Part shown: positions 8,237 to 46,698 of the stretch, piece by piece
Layout of the letters: the number at the start of each line of letters is the position of its first letter
Position numbering within the stretch: the first letter of the stretch is position 1
Assembly: GCF_004123295.1 (NCBI RefSeq)
Contig: NZ_SDMK01000003.1
Location: forward strand, 310,001-374,000
Length of the DNA: 64,000 nt
Origin: Silvibacterium dinghuense
Lineage (GTDB): Bacteria; Acidobacteriota; Terriglobia; Terriglobales; Acidobacteriaceae
Direction of reading: 5' to 3'
Position numbers and translations under genes: made by a program
The notes under the pieces: model-generated
The model's database searches: none
Told to the model about the DNA's origin: nothing
Seen by the model: only the letters and a program-made list of their open reading frames with translations

Positions 8237-9691
8237 ATGACCACCGCCAGTTCCGCAATTGCGCTGGATCCGGCTGCTGCTTCTTCTCCTCGGACTTCCC
8301 TTCCACAGCTTGTGGAGGCTCTCAAGCGTGTTACCCCTCTGCAGGGGCTCGAGGAATCGGAATACATCTGGCTCGCGACGCACGGACTCGAGCGTTTTAT
8401 TCCTGCCGGAACCACTCTCTTTCACGAAGGCGATGCCGCCGAGGCCATGATCATCGTGCTGCGCGGCGAGGTGCACGTCCGCCGCGAGCGTGGCGGCCCC
8501 GCGGCGCTCTTCATCGGCCGCGCCGGCCAGATCACCGGCCTGCTGCCCTTCTCGCGCATGAAGACCTACGGCGGCCACGGCTACACCGTCGCCGACGTCT
8601 CGGTGCTCGAGTATCCCCGCTCCATATTCCCGGCCATGATGCAGGCCGTACCCTCCATGACGCAGCGCTGCGTCTCCGTGCTGCTGGACCGCGTTCGCGA
8701 AGTGACACGGCTCGAGCAGCAGACGGAAAAGCTCACGGCACTGGGCAAGCTCGCCGCCAATCTCGCGCATGAGATGAATAACCCGGCCTCGGCCGCGCAA
8801 CGCGCCGCCTCCGGCCTGCTCGATGAACTGCGCGTCTACGGCCACGAAAAATATCGCCTCGGCGGCCTTTGTCTCGATACGGCACATATGGCGCAGGTCC
8901 GTGACTGGCAGGACTCCGTGCGCGAGCACGCCCGCCATACCCCGCCGGAGACCGAGCGCCATGCCCAGCGCGAAGACGAGGTCCAGGAATGGCTTCGCGG
9001 CCACGGCGTGGAGCAGAGCTGGAAGATTGCCCCCGAGCTGGCCGAGCTTGGCGTCACCGCTGCTCAGCTCGAGCCGCTCGGCAGCTTCCTCAACGCCGAA
9101 GCGCTCTCGATTGTCCTCGGTCAGTTTTCTTCGTCGGTCCGCGCGGAGCGCATCGCCGAAGCCATGCTCGATTCGACAGCCCGCATCTTCGACCTCATCC
9201 GCGCCATCAAGGATTACTCCTACATGGACCAGGCGCCGATCCAGGAGGTCGACGTGCGCCAGGGGCTCGAGAACACGCTTACCATGCTCCAGTCGCGCCT
9301 TGCGCATGTCGAAATCGAGCGCCGCTACGCTGACGATCTGCCTTGCATCGCCGCCTACGGCAGCGAACTCAACCAGGTGTGGATGGGACTGCTCGAAAAC
9401 GCCCTCGATGCCATCGACGATCACGGCAAGATCACCCTCGCCGTGCAGATATCGGGCGACATGCTGCTCATCGAGGTGTGGGACAACGGCATCGGCATCG
9501 GGCCCGAAATCCGCGACCGCATCTTCGAGCCCTTCTTCACGACCAAAGCGCCTGGCCGCGGACTCGGGCTCGGACTCGACAATGTGCAGCGCATCGTCCG
9601 CCGCCATCGCGGCTACGTCAGCGTCGAATCGAAACCAGGAGCCACCTGCTTCCAGATCCGCCTGCCGATCGAACAGCTGCTGGCGTACTGA
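8237..9691 (+). CDS. Soluble sensor histidine kinase with cyclic-nucleotide-binding-type domain
   Basis: A 484-residue kinase with no membrane segment. Residues 35-155 form a cNMP-binding-type beta barrel ([21 protein letters not shown], then [13 protein letters not shown]); the canonical phosphate cassette is poorly conserved, so a different ligand is possible. The phosphoacceptor is H178 in [13 protein letters not shown]. About 110 residues separate this helix from the second dimerisation helix ([15 protein letters not shown]), much longer than usual. The ATPase domain has [14 protein letters not shown] and GLGLGLDN. No response regulator is adjacent, so it is an orphan kinase. Confidence 0.85.
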
Positions 9692-9700
9692 GTTACTTAA

Positions 9701-9732
9701 GGGTGTAGGGCATAGGGGATAGGGTGTAGAAG
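9701..9732. repeat. Left inverted repeat of the four-helix-bundle cassette (TAGGG type)
   Basis: A 32-bp sequence starting GGGTGTAGGG and ending AGGGTGTAGAAG. It matches the reverse complement of 10182-10213 at 29 of 32 positions (first 10 and last 12 identical). It lies between the kinase stop and the tail of the four-helix-bundle gene. Related copies occur at 35496-35510, 43354-43384 and 46673-46698. Confidence 0.85.
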
Positions 9733-9747
9733 AGCTTTCTGCCTGCT

Positions 9748-10143
9748 CTATCCCCGACGCTGCATGATGTGCCTGGGACTGGCGTCTCGCGGATGAAGCT
9801 CAGGGAGCATCTTGCTCAGCATGCGCCCTATTTCCTCCGACAGGCCTTCCGCTCGCAGCCGATTATCACGAGTTAAGAAGCCCAGTCTCTCCGCGATCAG
9901 CAGTTGCGTCTGCACTTCGTGATTCGATCCACGCGCGATGGCGAGAAACTGACAGTATTCTCCTCGAGAGCCGCGTCCATAGCCCTCAGCAATATTGCTT
10001 GCGATCGACACTCCTGCCCGCCGCAATTGGCTTGTGAGCCCATAAACTTCTCCGCGTGGAAACGACTCGGTAAGTCGGTAGATCTCGACGCAAAGATCCA
10101 TCGCTTTCTGCCAGACGATCAGTTCCTGATAAGAGGAAAGCAT
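9748..10143 (-). CDS. Four-helix-bundle protein, 23S rRNA intervening-sequence (S23/Avd-like) family
   Basis: A 131-residue protein with the family signature: YQELIVWQKAMDLCVEIYRL near the N-terminus, then LTSQLRRAGVSIASNIAEG, YGRGSRGEYCQFLAIARGS and an acidic terminal helix. Relatives are encoded inside 23S rRNA intervening sequences, or act as accessory (Avd) proteins of diversity-generating retroelements; many, as here, are stand-alone with no known function. The start at 10143 removes 13 unconserved residues. The gene is bracketed by 32-bp inverted repeats and lies alone on its strand between unrelated genes, which suggests it moves or is maintained as a cassette. Confidence 0.85.
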   Translation of the reverse strand: MLSSYQELIVWQKAMDLCVEIYRLTESFPRGEVYGLTSQLRRAGVSIASNIAEGYGRGSRGEYCQFLAIARGSNHEVQTQLLIAERLGFLTRDNRLRAEGLSEEIGRMLSKMLPELHPRDASPRHIMQRRG

Positions 10144-10181
10144 GCATCTTTCTACGCCTGCCAGCCTTAACCAAGCGAGCA

Positions 10182-10213
10182 CTTCTACACCCTACTCCCT
10201 ATCCCCTACACCC
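10182..10213. repeat. Right inverted repeat of the four-helix-bundle cassette (TAGGG type)
   Basis: Inverted partner of 9701-9732, lying 38 bp upstream of the four-helix-bundle start and 8 bp past the stop of the ADOP permease. On the plus strand it reads CTTCTACACCCTACTCCCTA followed by TCCCCTACACCCT. Confidence 0.85.
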
Positions 10214-10221
10214 TTTCGTAA

Positions 10222-12906
10222 TTATTCCGCTCTCAACGCCTCGACCGGATTCACGCTCGCTGCGCGTCGCGCAGGCAGCCATGCTGCACAGGCGGCAGCG
10301 GCAGTAAGTACCAGCGCCACGCCGCTCAGCGTCCAGCCATCGTGAGCCTTCACGCCGTAGAGATAGCTGCTCACCAGCCTGCCAGCGAAATACGCCAGCA
10401 CCAGCCCCAGCACCACTCCCACGCCCACCAGAGCACCCGCCTGCCGCATCACCAGGGCCATCACATTGCCTCGGCTCGCACCGAGAGCGAAGCGCACGCC
10501 CATCTCGCGCGTCCGTTGACTCACCACATAGGCCAGCAGTCCATAGAGCCCTGCCACGCATAACAGCAGTGCCGAGCCGGCAAAGATTTCGAGCAGCCGC
10601 GCCGCCAGCATCTGACTGCCATAAGAGTCTTCGACAATCTGGTTCATGGTGGTGATGCGCGAGTTGGCCAGCTCCGGGCTCGCCTGCTTGAGCGCCGCAC
10701 GCAGTTCTGGGATCACCTGCGCCGGCTCGCGCTCGGTGCGCACCGCCAGGTCCATCGCAATGCCCTCAAGCACCGTGTAGAAGCCGCTGTCCGGGGTGAG
10801 CTGCGCAAGGTTTACCTCGACTTCGGGCGCCGCCTCACCACCCACCGACGCCTGGTGAAAATCGTCGAGCACCCCGACGATCTTCGCCGACTTACTGTTC
10901 TCTCCGCCAACGCTGATGACCTCCTTGCCGATCACCTTTCCCGGGTCCTGTTCCTCGGGAAAAAATGCCCGCGCAAAGGCGCGATTGACCACGATCACCG
11001 GCTCAGACGATGCCGTATCCTGTGGCTCGAAGTAGCGCCCGCGCAGCATCTGGAAGGCGAAGACACGCTGCATATCCGGGCTTACCGCCTGAAATGCCGA
11101 AGTTACCGACACCGGCTTACTTTTGGGATCACCGTATGTGGTCTTGTAGAGACCGATGCGCATGGTGAAATTGCTGTCGAGCGGCACCTGCGTCATCAGT
11201 CCGGCCGCAGTCACACCCGGCAGATGCTGGGCACGCTCGAGCAACGGCGCATAGAGCTCGGTGGCAGCATTTACCTTCGCGTAGCGATAGGTGGGGACAT
11301 CGAGGCTCGCAACAAGAATGTGATCGGTGCGGAAGCCCAGCGGCACCTGACGCAATGCGTAAATGGTGCGCAGTAATAACCCGCAGCAGGCCAGCAGTGC
11401 CAGCGACATCGCAATCTCAGCCACGACGAGGCCGCCGCGCAGCCTCTGCTGACCGCGGCTCACCCCACCCTGCTGGCCGCCCTGGCGCAGCACCGGCTCG
11501 ATGGGCGCACTTACCGCAATGAGCGCCGGCCACACCGAGGCCAGCACGGCCGAGAACAGCGTGAGTCCAGCTAATGTAACCATTACGGTGACAGATGGCA
11601 GCGCCGGCACCGCAAGCGGCAGGCTCTGCTTGAGCGCATGCTGAAAGACACGCACTGCAAGCATAGCCATGCCCGCGCCGATCAGCGATGCCGCACCACT
11701 CAGCACCAGTCCTTCGATGACCATCTGCTGCAGCAGCCGCGTGCGTCCAGCGCCGAGCGCGCCGCGCATGGCAATCTCGCGCTGCCGCGCCGAGGCTCGC
11801 GCCAGCAGCAGGTTGGTCGCATTCACGCAGGCAATCAACCAGAGCACGCCGGATGCGCCCAGCAACGCGAGCAAAGCGCCGCGCTCGTCTTTTGAGATGA
11901 GCCCTTCTTCATAACGCTCGACCTTGACGTGCTTCGCGCTCTCCTGCCAATCATGATTGCCGACGTTCTTCACTAGTTGCGCCTGCACGGCCGTCAACTC
12001 GGCAAGCGCAGATTCGATCTTCACACCAGGCTTGAGCCGCGCAATCGTCGCATAGTAACGACTGTTAACATTCGACTCGCGATCCTTGTCTCCGAGCGTG
12101 ACAGGAACCCACACCGGGGACAGGTCGCGGCGATCCGGATAGAAGAACCCGCGCGGCATCACGCCAACGATGAGGTAGCTCTTACCATTGATCTTTGCTG
12201 TCTTTCCGATCACATTCTGGTCGCCATGAAACAACGCCTGCCATGTCGAGTAGCCGAGGACCACATCGCTGTCCCGCGCTGTTTTCGCAAAGCTCTCCGG
12301 CCCCGATGGAAGCCCGGGACCGATCAGCGGCGACACGCCCAGCAGCGAGAACAGGTTCGCGCTCACATTGGTCATTGATATCTGCGTCGCGCTGTCCCCG
12401 GTCTCGAGAAAGCTGCGGCCATTCGTACTGCTGGAAAATGCGATGCCTTCATAGCTCTTCAGCCGTTGCTGCCACGCTGAAATATCCTGATAGGTTGGCG
12501 AATATTGGAACATCCCTCCCCCTGCCGAAAGCTTCACCAGCCTGCCCGCATCCTTGTAAGGCAGCGGCTGGAGCATCACGTGATCGACCACCGTGAACAT
12601 CGCCGTGGCCGCGCCTATCCCAAGCGCGAGAGTCCCGATCACCGACGCCGCAAAGCCAGGCGAGCGGCGCATCTGCCGCAGCGCGTAGCGCAGGTCCTGT
12701 ACCACCCGTTCCACGCGCAGCCATCCCCACGAAGCCCGCGTCGCCTCCTGCACCAGAGCGGCATTGCCCAGCTCCCGCCGCGCATTTGTATCCGCTTCGG
12801 TTACATTCTCACCCGCCGCACGACGCTCCGCCGCCGCCATCGCCAGGTGCGACGCCAGCTCGTCTTCCAGATCCTGCTTGCGCTTCTCGCCAAAGAACCA
12901 GGCCAT
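10222..12906 (-). CDS. ADOP-type ABC transporter permease (MacB/FtsX family)
   Basis: An 894-residue membrane protein of the large permease family expanded in Acidobacteriota. A soluble N-terminal region (residues 1-80, ELASHLAMAAAERRAAG then RRELGNAA) precedes TM1 at about 87-107, a periplasmic MacB-type domain, a first FtsX block of three TMs (LLALLGASGVLWLIACVNAT then ARASARQREIAMRGALGAG), a second periplasmic domain, and a second FtsX block near the end (TREMGVRFALGASRGNVMAL). No ATPase gene is adjacent, as is typical. Start 12906 has AAGGAG. It is 29 bp downstream of its PadR regulator. Substrate unknown. Confidence 0.9.
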   Translation of the reverse strand: MAWFFGEKRKQDLEDELASHLAMAAAERRAAGENVTEADTNARRELGNAALVQEATRASWGWLRVERVVQDLRYALRQMRRSPGFAASVIGTLALGIGAATAMFTVVDHVMLQPLPYKDAGRLVKLSAGGGMFQYSPTYQDISAWQQRLKSYEGIAFSSSTNGRSFLETGDSATQISMTNVSANLFSLLGVSPLIGPGLPSGPESFAKTARDSDVVLGYSTWQALFHGDQNVIGKTAKINGKSYLIVGVMPRGFFYPDRRDLSPVWVPVTLGDKDRESNVNSRYYATIARLKPGVKIESALAELTAVQAQLVKNVGNHDWQESAKHVKVERYEEGLISKDERGALLALLGASGVLWLIACVNATNLLLARASARQREIAMRGALGAGRTRLLQQMVIEGLVLSGAASLIGAGMAMLAVRVFQHALKQSLPLAVPALPSVTVMVTLAGLTLFSAVLASVWPALIAVSAPIEPVLRQGGQQGGVSRGQQRLRGGLVVAEIAMSLALLACCGLLLRTIYALRQVPLGFRTDHILVASLDVPTYRYAKVNAATELYAPLLERAQHLPGVTAAGLMTQVPLDSNFTMRIGLYKTTYGDPKSKPVSVTSAFQAVSPDMQRVFAFQMLRGRYFEPQDTASSEPVIVVNRAFARAFFPEEQDPGKVIGKEVISVGGENSKSAKIVGVLDDFHQASVGGEAAPEVEVNLAQLTPDSGFYTVLEGIAMDLAVRTEREPAQVIPELRAALKQASPELANSRITTMNQIVEDSYGSQMLAARLLEIFAGSALLLCVAGLYGLLAYVVSQRTREMGVRFALGASRGNVMALVMRQAGALVGVGVVLGLVLAYFAGRLVSSYLYGVKAHDGWTLSGVALVLTAAAACAAWLPARRAASVNPVEALRAE

Positions 12907-12935
12907 CGCTGCTTCTCCTTGAATTCGTGAACGCT

Positions 12936-13295
12936 TCAGCCTTCCGCTTCCGGCACCGCTCCCAGCACGCCTGCCATGGCCTGCACCATGGCCTCCCACT
13001 TCGAGCGGTCTCGCAGCAGCTGGGCCTTGCCATCCTTTGTCAGTTCATAAAACTTTGCCCGCTGATTCTGGTCAGTCACACCCCATTTGCTCTTGATCCA
13101 CTTCTGCTTTTCGAGCCGGTGCAGTGCCGGATAGAGCGATCCCGTCTCTACCTGCAGCACCTCACCCGAGCGCGCACGGATGGCCTGACCGATGCCGTAG
13201 CCATGCTGCGCACCCCAGCGCAGGGTTTCGAGAATCAGCAGGTCCAGCGTGCCCTGCAGCAGCTCGATGCGGTTCTGATATTTTTCTTTCGCCAT
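12936..13295 (-). CDS. PadR family transcriptional regulator
   Basis: A 119-residue winged-helix repressor. The PadR core is clear: QGTLDLLILETLRWGAQHGY, then GSLYPALHRLEKQKWIKSKW and KFYELTKDGKAQL. The C-terminal helix for dimerisation is short, placing it in the small PadR class. It heads a two-gene unit with the ADOP permease. Two spaced palindromes immediately upstream of its start are probable operators, so it should control itself and the permease. Confidence 0.92.
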   Translation of the reverse strand: MAKEKYQNRIELLQGTLDLLILETLRWGAQHGYGIGQAIRARSGEVLQVETGSLYPALHRLEKQKWIKSKWGVTDQNQRAKFYELTKDGKAQLLRDRSKWEAMVQAMAGVLGAVPEAEG

Positions 13296-45917: not shown

Positions 45918-46676
45918 ATGTCTCTGAAGCAAACGGCCCTGATTCTGCTCTCCGCTCTGGCTCTCGCCGGCGCAGGCTGCAAGAAGTCCGGCCCCGCCGC
46001 TCCCGCCCAGAATTACGTCTCCATCGATCCGGCCACGGCCGGAACCATTTCCGGCACAATTCATTACGAGGGCAAGCCTCCGGCTCGCATTCCCATCGAC
46101 ATGGGGCAGGACCCGGCGTGTACCTTTGCCGATGCGAACCTGACCGAGCAGTACGTGGTGCATAACGGCGGGCTCGCGAATGTCTTTCTGTACGTAAAAA
46201 GCGGGCTGGGCGACAAGGTATATGCCATCCCCACGTCGCCGGTGGTGATGGACCAGAAAGGCTGCCGCTATACGCCGCACGTGGTCGGTCTCCGTGTCGG
46301 ACAGCCGATCAAGTTCACCAACAGCGACAACACTATGCACAACGTGCACATGACGCCGACACTGGGGACAAACCAGGCCGCGGATCTCTCCGAGCCGCCG
46401 AACGACGCGGGCGAGACCCGGGTGCTGTCGTCGCCGGAGCTGATGATCCCGGTGCGCTGCAACAACCATCCCTGGATGGAAGCCTTTATCAACGTCATCG
46501 ACAACCCGTTCTACGCGGTTTCGGATACAGATGGGCACTTCACCATCCACGGCCTGCCTCCGGGAACGTACACCATCGAGGCAGTACACGAGGTTCTGGG
46601 CAAACAGACCGCTACGGTGACAGTCGCCTCGCAGCAGACAGCCACGGCGAACTTCACCTTCAGCGGGACGAAGTAG
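45918..46676 (+). CDS. Cupredoxin-like secreted lipoprotein
   Basis: A 252-residue exported protein. A lipobox-like site precedes C21 (LALAGAGCKKSG). A beta-rich domain carries a putative copper site: H141 and H144 in NTMHNVHM, then C181, H184 and M187 in RCNNHPWMEAF, an arrangement like type 1 blue-copper proteins. The last 60 residues (SDTDGHFTIHGLPPGTYTIE) are a carboxypeptidase-regulatory-like beta sandwich. It could be a periplasmic electron carrier, but metal binding is not proven. The 200 bp upstream hold only the hairpin after the preceding gene. Confidence 0.78.
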   Translation: MSLKQTALILLSALALAGAGCKKSGPAAPAQNYVSIDPATAGTISGTIHYEGKPPARIPIDMGQDPACTFADANLTEQYVVHNGGLANVFLYVKSGLGDKVYAIPTSPVVMDQKGCRYTPHVVGLRVGQPIKFTNSDNTMHNVHMTPTLGTNQAADLSEPPNDAGETRVLSSPELMIPVRCNNHPWMEAFINVIDNPFYAVSDTDGHFTIHGLPPGTYTIEAVHEVLGKQTATVTVASQQTATANFTFSGTK

Positions 46677-46698
46677 GGTTTAGGGAGATAGGGTGTAG
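46673..46698. repeat. TAGGG-type dispersed repeat
   Basis: GTAGGGTTTAGGGAGATAGG followed by GTGTAG. It overlaps the stop codon of the cupredoxin-like gene, in the same orientation as 9701-9732. Confidence 0.65.

Follow-up and report, generated by a model that had tools for sequence, protein, structure and literature searches.

Convergent arrays of AG-anchored heptads frame S23 four-helix-bundle genes in many bacterial genomes

Genes for S23 four-helix-bundle proteins are often framed on both sides by arrays of 7-bp, sometimes 8-bp, units that are anchored on the dinucleotide AG and converge on the gene. The association of S23 genes with paired arrays and the grammar of these arrays are well supported by a survey of 180 genes. 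The arrays hold exactly five AGs more often than any other number, which suggests that a five-part ring protein reads them.

The window, a 64,000-nt stretch of the Silvibacterium dinghuense genome, holds one such S23 cassette and a solo array of the same unit type. Features are given by window position and strand.

8237..9691, plus strand: left host gene, similar to a sensor histidine kinase; between the end of its stop codon and the first AG of the left arm there are 8 nt.
9693..10221, no strand: whole cassette including the full 44-nt inverted repeats; on either side it is immediately followed by the stop codon of a convergent host gene.
9700..9729, plus strand: left arm AGGGTGTAGGGCATAGGGGATAGGGTGTAG, five AG anchors at 7-nt spacing, from the sequence and a scan for AG runs; part of the inverted repeat.
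9748..10182, minus strand: S23/four-helix-bundle protein gene, from PF05635 and TIGR02436 profile matches.
10185..10214, minus strand: right arm AGGGTGTAGGGGATAGGGAGTAGGGTGTAG, five AG anchors at 7-nt spacing, from the sequence and a scan for AG runs; part of the inverted repeat.
10222..12999, minus strand: right host gene, ADOP-type permease (TIGR03434); its end adjoins the right arm.
46674..46698, plus strand: solo array of the same unit type as the window arms, without an S23 gene and with one irregular 9-nt step.

The S23 open reading frame has 144 codons from a GTG, and its likely start is an ATG at 10143, which yields a protein of 131 aa. This protein matches PF05635 (23S rRNA intervening sequence protein, E 1.4e-38) and TIGR02436 (four helix bundle protein, E 9.1e-37) and passes both curated cut-offs, with 131.7 bits against 33.8 and 125.6 bits against 24, respectively. 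Only S23/Avd-type families were matched in the profile search. These matches confirm the family named in the preliminary description, which had called the enclosed gene S23/Avd-like. The same description had reported an inverse match at 29 of 32 positions between 9701-9732 and 10182-10213; that count is exact and the match scores far above 300 shuffles. The full inverted repeat measures 44 nt (9693-9736 and 10178-10221, 86% complementary). The inverted-repeat score is 26.5, whereas flanks shuffled 300 times by mononucleotide average 9.0 and reach 13.5 at most. Both arms are heptad arrays of AGGGNNT units with the pattern AG-N5-AG-N5-AG-N5-AG-N5-AG, and both point at the gene. The site lies between the histidine kinase-like and ADOP permease genes and not inside a 23S rRNA gene. 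The repeat had also been said to occur alone elsewhere in the manner of a REP element. A related array is indeed present at 46674-46698, but the repeats are heptad arrays and not palindromic REPs. The first TAG of this solo TAGGG array serves as stop codon for ORF 45918-46676; at locus L010, a heptad TAG likewise provides the sucC stop codon ahead of an S23 cassette.

The flanking repeat is dispersed in the 5.1-Mb S. dinghuense genome (G000), where TAGGGTGTAG has 80 copies against 10 of the reversed pattern. TAGGGTGTAG forms seven plus/minus pairs no more than 500 bp apart, every one convergent, with S23 inside only one; there are no minus/plus pairs, and interiors were inspected for four of the seven. 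Two further S23 genes are encoded, one between sucC and sucD with flanking heptads of TAGCTTC units, and one between pheS and pheT (L051), flanked by short CAGTTAG units and a 17-nt inverted repeat that fall below the array threshold of the survey. The neighbours at all three sites are host genes. A fixed TAGGGTGTAG or REP-type flank, as proposed in the preliminary description, gave way to a 7-bp grammar whose sequence varies from gene to gene. The fixed TAGGGTGTAG flank was dropped as a rule; other S23 genes, including the other two of this genome, carry different units. A perfect array of 20 CAGGGCT units is located outside called ORFs at G000 C1:1667595-1667730 (L373, 7595-7730), and its unit type is matched by none of the three S23 genes. 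Around 34 sites in the genome, YAG runs of at least three units (n=30) number 7, 6, 13, 3 and 1 for three, four, five, six and seven units. A 400-kb sample of the genome contains ten runs of at least four, just one of them with exactly five, and the peak at five is absent there.

S23 loci came from three sources: the same family, 80 named genomes spread over many phyla, and ten cyanobacterial plasmids. Genes were located by profile. Matches were present in 192 of 193 scanned loci. The 194 matches were reduced to 186 distinct genes by collapsing near-identical proteins, and 180 of these have 220 nt on both sides. The family loci are a non-random sample that includes 58 places picked among the matches listed (429 matches in 150 genomes), with duplicated loci collapsed. 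The named-genome loci are the best 80 of 577 relatives found via one conserved motif.

Arrays of period 7 or 8 are found on both sides of 103 of the 180 genes and on one side of 55, and 22 have no array at the threshold used. Random placements in the same loci, for which 155 of the 180 had room, gave both sides in 1, one side in 15 and neither in 139. By set, genes with both arrays and with neither number 57 and 16 of 93 in the family, 37 and 6 of 77 in named genomes, and 9 and 0 of 10 on plasmids. As controls, 297 open reading frames no shorter than 100 aa were taken from 400 kb of the S. dinghuense genome; none is framed by two arrays, and 16 have an array on one side. S23 genes are framed far more often than other ORFs. 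A repeat pair equally common around unrelated genes would have counted against the preliminary description. Self-similarity of the named-genome flanks is concentrated at a lag of 7 (84 of 148 flanks, against 10 of 146 control stretches), with a smaller signal at a lag of 8 (20 flanks against 3 control stretches). Lag 14, a harmonic, was seen in 57 flanks, and the other lags from 4 to 13 in 0 to 12. The outer AGs of a cassette are a median of 478 nt apart (80 genes).

Unit sequences vary widely among S23 genes and include AGTTCTC, AGTACCG, AGCTTCT, AGTGGTT and AGGCAGT. On the cyanobacterial plasmids the arms are mostly clear heptads, such as TAGGGAG, AGCTAAA, AGGTGAC and TAGGGTG. Two of these plasmids, from Anabaena sp. 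90 (L228) and Pseudanabaena galeata (L229), carry a heptad-armed S23 gene between CRISPR cas6 and cas4; the L228 locus is type I-D by its annotated cas1d. Viral contigs in IMG/VR also contain S23 matches, and some of these contigs may be host fragments. In 39 of 44 such loci, arrays lie on both sides in 19, on one side in 11 and on neither in 9. Five loci were left out as apparent repeats (L328, L329, L337, L355 and L358), and two near-identical pairs were retained (L345/L346 and L347/L348). In one IMG/VR contig (L332), about 30 AGs at 7-nt spacing, in AGGCTCC units, precede S23. A tblastn search of phage records with the window protein returned no match.

The arrays tend to share an orientation, an anchor and a preferred count. 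In upstream arms the YAG motif is sense in 71, antisense in 8 and unclear in 32, and in downstream arms it is antisense in 68, sense in 10 and unclear in 44; the two arms therefore converge on the gene. AG is the top dinucleotide in 7-nt-spaced runs of at least four (196 of 360 flanks, with GT in 110 and GG in 109). Runs of exactly four, five and six AGs were counted in 46, 103 and 26 of the 360 flanks, and the opposite strands of the flanks show no peak at five. The corresponding counts are 23, 50 and 15 in the family, 17, 50 and 9 in named genomes, and 5, 23 and 6 in 78 flanks of the viral-contig loci. The ten genes on cyanobacterial plasmids show no such peak (6, 3 and 2), nor do spacings of 5, 6, 9 and 10 nt. 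At 8-nt spacing there is a small five-AG group, with 12 flanks against 5 for four and 3 for six. The core of an 8-bp unit may be that of the heptad, with an extended linker. Arms without AG belong to both S23 genes of G026 (CGTTTCA or AAATGCA-type) and are also seen in G134 (TTGAATGA-type octads).

Exactly-five arrays have sharp ends. In 106 of them, the periodicity of the spacers starts at the first AG and stops at the fifth, with a match of 0.51-0.84 inside. Positions next outside match at 0.21-0.32, except for the base after the fifth AG (0.52). Picking arrays with exactly five AGs does not force such ends on the spacers. Within the unit, the base that precedes AG and the two that follow it are steadier, and the remaining two are loose. 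The published mode for the GGGAATC repeats of Xanthomonas is four units (PMC4692102), which is in tension with a count of five, though five AGs enclose only four full heptads.

Arm sequence follows the protein. The two arms of one gene have a similarity of 0.54 (109 genes), against 0.27 between different genes, and arm similarity rises with protein identity (rho 0.21, 135 genes, 0 of 300 permutations, phylogeny corrected only partly). At equal protein identity, arms of paralogues within one genome (38 pairs) are about as similar as those across genomes (0.276 vs 0.268). Swapping arms among same-genome paralogues lowered the correlation from 0.315 to a mean of 0.157, and none of 500 trials was as high; this test used 65 genes, of which 33 in 10 genomes were swapped, with phylogeny corrected only partly. 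Unit sequence follows protein lineage more than genome. Between sucC and sucD, the proteins of S. dinghuense and G055 are 78% identical and TAGCTTN-type arms are common to both; G139, of the same genus as G055, has a protein 63% identical to that of G055 and CAGTTGT-type arms. Between pheS and pheT, octad arms are common to G004 and G055 (68%), and S. dinghuense and G088 carry others. The single S23 gene of G111 has an arm unlike the dispersed arrays of that genome. The preliminary description had offered recognition of the repeats by the protein as a possibility. Units that track the protein lineage fit such putative recognition, and the sequence so recognised would not be a fixed one.

A very improbable account holds that the heptads arise by replication slippage, or are kept as G-quadruplex elements, and that S23 genes merely accumulate nearby. 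Published proposals include polymerase slippage as the origin of heptanucleotide repeats (cited in PMC4679880) and quadruplex formation by GGGAATC (PMC4692102), and some arrays are long and perfect, such as the one of 20 units in L373. Against this account, none of the 297 control ORFs is framed and the arms are convergent. The most constant part of the arrays is AG and not GG, the units track the protein, and the S23 arms peak at five sharp-ended anchors.

Recognition unit by unit is favoured over a selected stem by the order of units, because the arms of one gene have no unit order in common. In 33 genes whose two arms each have five AGs, the arms agree at 0.729 in register and 0.712 out of register, and 233 of 2000 permutations were as good. 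Exact copying of terminal inverted repeats, like a selected stem, was rejected on this result. The stem bears on an explanation by RNA processing, in which the arms only pair, RNase III cuts the RNA stem and removes the cassette from transcripts as in 23S rRNA intervening sequences, and the protein is a passenger. The intervening sequence of Coxiella has the same layout, with a 28-bp terminal stem, excision by RNase III, and three tandem GACAGAT heptamers, giving a CAG every 7 nt, before the S23 ORF (PMC4990558). The gene-strand RNA of the window cassette is likewise predicted to fold with its arms paired (z -5.75), and cassettes often lie among co-directional genes; in 84 of 186, the longest nearby ORF on each side runs in the direction of S23. 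We nevertheless consider RNA processing an unlikely explanation. A selected stem would predict matching unit order, and the order is mismatched beyond unit type. A stem requires a minimum length and not five sharp-ended anchors, many arrays have no partner, and the runs around the 34 S. dinghuense sites peak at five, though those of the 400-kb sample do not. The S23 proteins compared are also under purifying selection, with dN of 0.075-0.095 and dS of 1.0-1.3 in the three closest pairs (eight pairs compared, dS obtained for five). The S23 ORF of Coxiella, in contrast, is described as undergoing reductive evolution, and GACAGAT copy number in its intervening sequence varies between strains (PMC4990558).

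Array density follows S23 number across genomes. In 150 family genomes, YAG arrays are denser where S23 genes are more numerous (rho 0.75). Genomes that lack S23 (n=38) have a median of 1.9 YAG windows per Mb, and those with at least seven S23 genes (n=19) have 50.8. S23 number correlates with the reversed control pattern as well (rho 0.64), partly because this pattern catches some of the same arrays, namely those carrying GAY, which makes the effect size uncertain. Six genomes have no S23 yet exceed 8 array windows per Mb, and ten have S23 yet fewer than 3. The six (G034, G045, G060, G065, G106 and G149) have many YAG arrays and no PF05635 match, and their arrays possibly reflect S23 loss, incomplete assembly or another reader. 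A search for bAvd (PF22296) as a substitute matched nowhere at all and was uninformative.

The term cassette, used in the preliminary description, is apt in that S23 and its arms come or go as one block between pheS and pheT in relatives. Without an insert, the two genes overlap by ATGA in four relatives and are separated by a 13-nt gap in two. The inserts are 514 nt in S. dinghuense and 443 nt in G004, and in G004 an ATGA is found on both sides; this could be a 4-bp duplication, or the two codons may just have been retained. Seven pheS-pheT inserts have no duplication in common beyond ATGA. About 600 bp of other sequence occupies the junction in G005, and S23 cassettes are also present there in G055, G088, G043, G079 and G027. 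The pheS-pheT and sucC-sucD junctions are repeatedly occupied in several genera by S23 cassettes whose proteins differ in identity, and such operon junctions behave as if they were preferred sites. A comparison of empty and occupied sites had been proposed from the window alone. The presence and absence of the pheS-pheT block answers to it. At the window's own site, the orthologous cassettes of S. dinghuense and G007 have different arms. G005 has no S23 at that site and has a different array-like pair, by eye.

Presence and absence of a block would also be expected of a MITE-like DNA element that an unrelated transposase moves in trans, with the heptads as its terminal inverted repeats and S23 as cargo. 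The ATGA on either side of the G004 insert could be read in this way, as could the seven convergent TAGGGTGTAG pairs of S. dinghuense, with S23 in only one and no pair in the other orientation. Convergent pairs have been published for Xanthomonas (PMC4692102). On three of the ten cyanobacterial plasmids (L230, L231 and L234), an annotated transposase or phage-type integrase adjoins S23, and such enzymes may move it. An element of this kind with S23 as cargo is improbable. An ATGA on both sides would also result if the stop codon and the start codon had each been preserved, AG alone is common to the outer ends, and host genes flank S23 at all three sites in S. dinghuense. The arm sequence tracks the S23 lineage, which cargo status alone would not cause.

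The protein may offer a match for the count of five. Each of the solved S23 relatives, 2gsc (from XCC0516) and 2rld, consists of five chains, and 2gsc is the best PDB match of an AlphaFold2 model of the window protein, a predicted four-helix fold with a pLDDT of 91. To our knowledge, S23/Avd-type families have no known catalytic activity. The fold resembles that of Avd, the accessory protein of diversity-generating retroelements, although the match to Avd 4dwl (E 0.035, TM 0.71/0.86) is weaker than that to 2gsc; the reverse transcriptase ribonucleoprotein 8ub7 was matched at E 0.051. The window protein scores 16.6 bits against the Avd equivalog NF033474, below its cut-off of 80, and neither adjacent gene is a reverse transcriptase, unlike in Avd systems. 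An S23 protein of Xanthomonas is described as a toroidal homopentamer (PMC4990558), and PF05635 as resembling Avd (PMC10053308).

The S23 gene probably carries two copies of the binding site of its own protein, with a pentameric ring reading five AG units on a single strand. Each site would be a row of five AG-anchored units, and each subunit of the homopentameric ring would bind one unit on single-stranded RNA or DNA. About 5 nt may be read per unit, followed by a linker of 2 or 3 nt. A single strand is proposed because spacings of 7 and 8 nt are both tolerated, and sites on a duplex would be turned. With convergent sites, each strand of the element would start 5' with a site. Binding may mark the ends of the element, and the block and the solo arrays could spread with an enzyme supplied from elsewhere. 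We infer that the protein binds the arms and that the five anchors mirror the five subunits. Observed directly are the arms, the five-AG peak with its sharp ends, the orientation, the link to lineage, the dispersed arrays that have no S23 gene with them, and presence or absence of the block at one site. The pentamer and the Avd-related fold are taken from the literature.

One unit per subunit has a counterpart in the trp RNA-binding attenuation protein (TRAP), whose fold is unrelated to S23 and whose repeats are spaced by about 5 nt. As proposed for the S23 ring, each TRAP subunit takes a single short AG-type unit from a row; TRAP has eleven units in place of five, and the S23 spacing is 7-8 nt. 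TRAP consists of 11 subunits and binds 11 (G/U)AG repeats (PMC4027176). This analogy and the S23 pentamer together led us to propose five subunits for five AG units.

Three other systems share parts of the arrangement. The 23S rRNA intervening sequences of Coxiella and Leptospira, like the window cassette, hold an S23-family ORF within terminal inverted repeats, but they sit inside rRNA, whereas the surveyed cassettes lie between protein genes. In REP/RAYT systems, as described, a gene likewise lies within inverted copies of a dispersed intergenic repeat whose type is tied to lineage. There, however, the RAYT is a Y1/HUH transposase and the REP a palindrome, where here there is an S23 four-helix bundle and a tandem heptad array. 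Dispersed heptad repeats are also known from cyanobacteria as STRR. In Xanthomonas, GGGAATC heptads form 70 and 75 convergent pairs in two species (PMC4692102). In the Beggiatoaceae, the heptads are TAACTGA, and S1, Csp and CsrA were named as candidate binders (PMC4679880). Both are described as dispersed and intergenic, like the S23 arms, and the Xanthomonas pairs are convergent as well. The terms "S23" and "four helix" gave no match in word searches of PMC4679880 and PMC4692102, and the passages of PMC4990558 on the Coxiella heptads do not extend them to other S23 genes. Among the titles and abstract openings of the matches listed, which cover few subscription papers and no bioRxiv preprints, none joins S23 to heptads generally.

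A bolder view is offered tentatively. S23 proteins may be the cognate readers, and perhaps the spreaders, of scattered heptads such as STRR, GGGAATC and TAACTGA, in an economy that resembles REP/RAYT but is driven by an Avd-type ring and no transposase. The gene and its two convergent sites would then be an autonomous element, and solo arrays and empty pairs its non-autonomous offspring. Each S23 lineage would have its own unit sequence, and a ring of five subunits would read five AG-anchored units on a single strand.

S23 structures have been solved since 2006 (2gsc), yet we know of no function for these proteins. Dispersed heptads have been noticed in cyanobacteria, Xanthomonas and Beggiatoaceae, and no accepted cause is known to us. 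The association of S23 genes with arrays gives the protein and the repeats a partner each and so links two old puzzles. If the proposed reading is true, S23 and its arrays would form a repeat-protein pair of a new kind, and would be one way in which rRNA insertions, operon junctions and intergenic DNA come to be shaped across many phyla.
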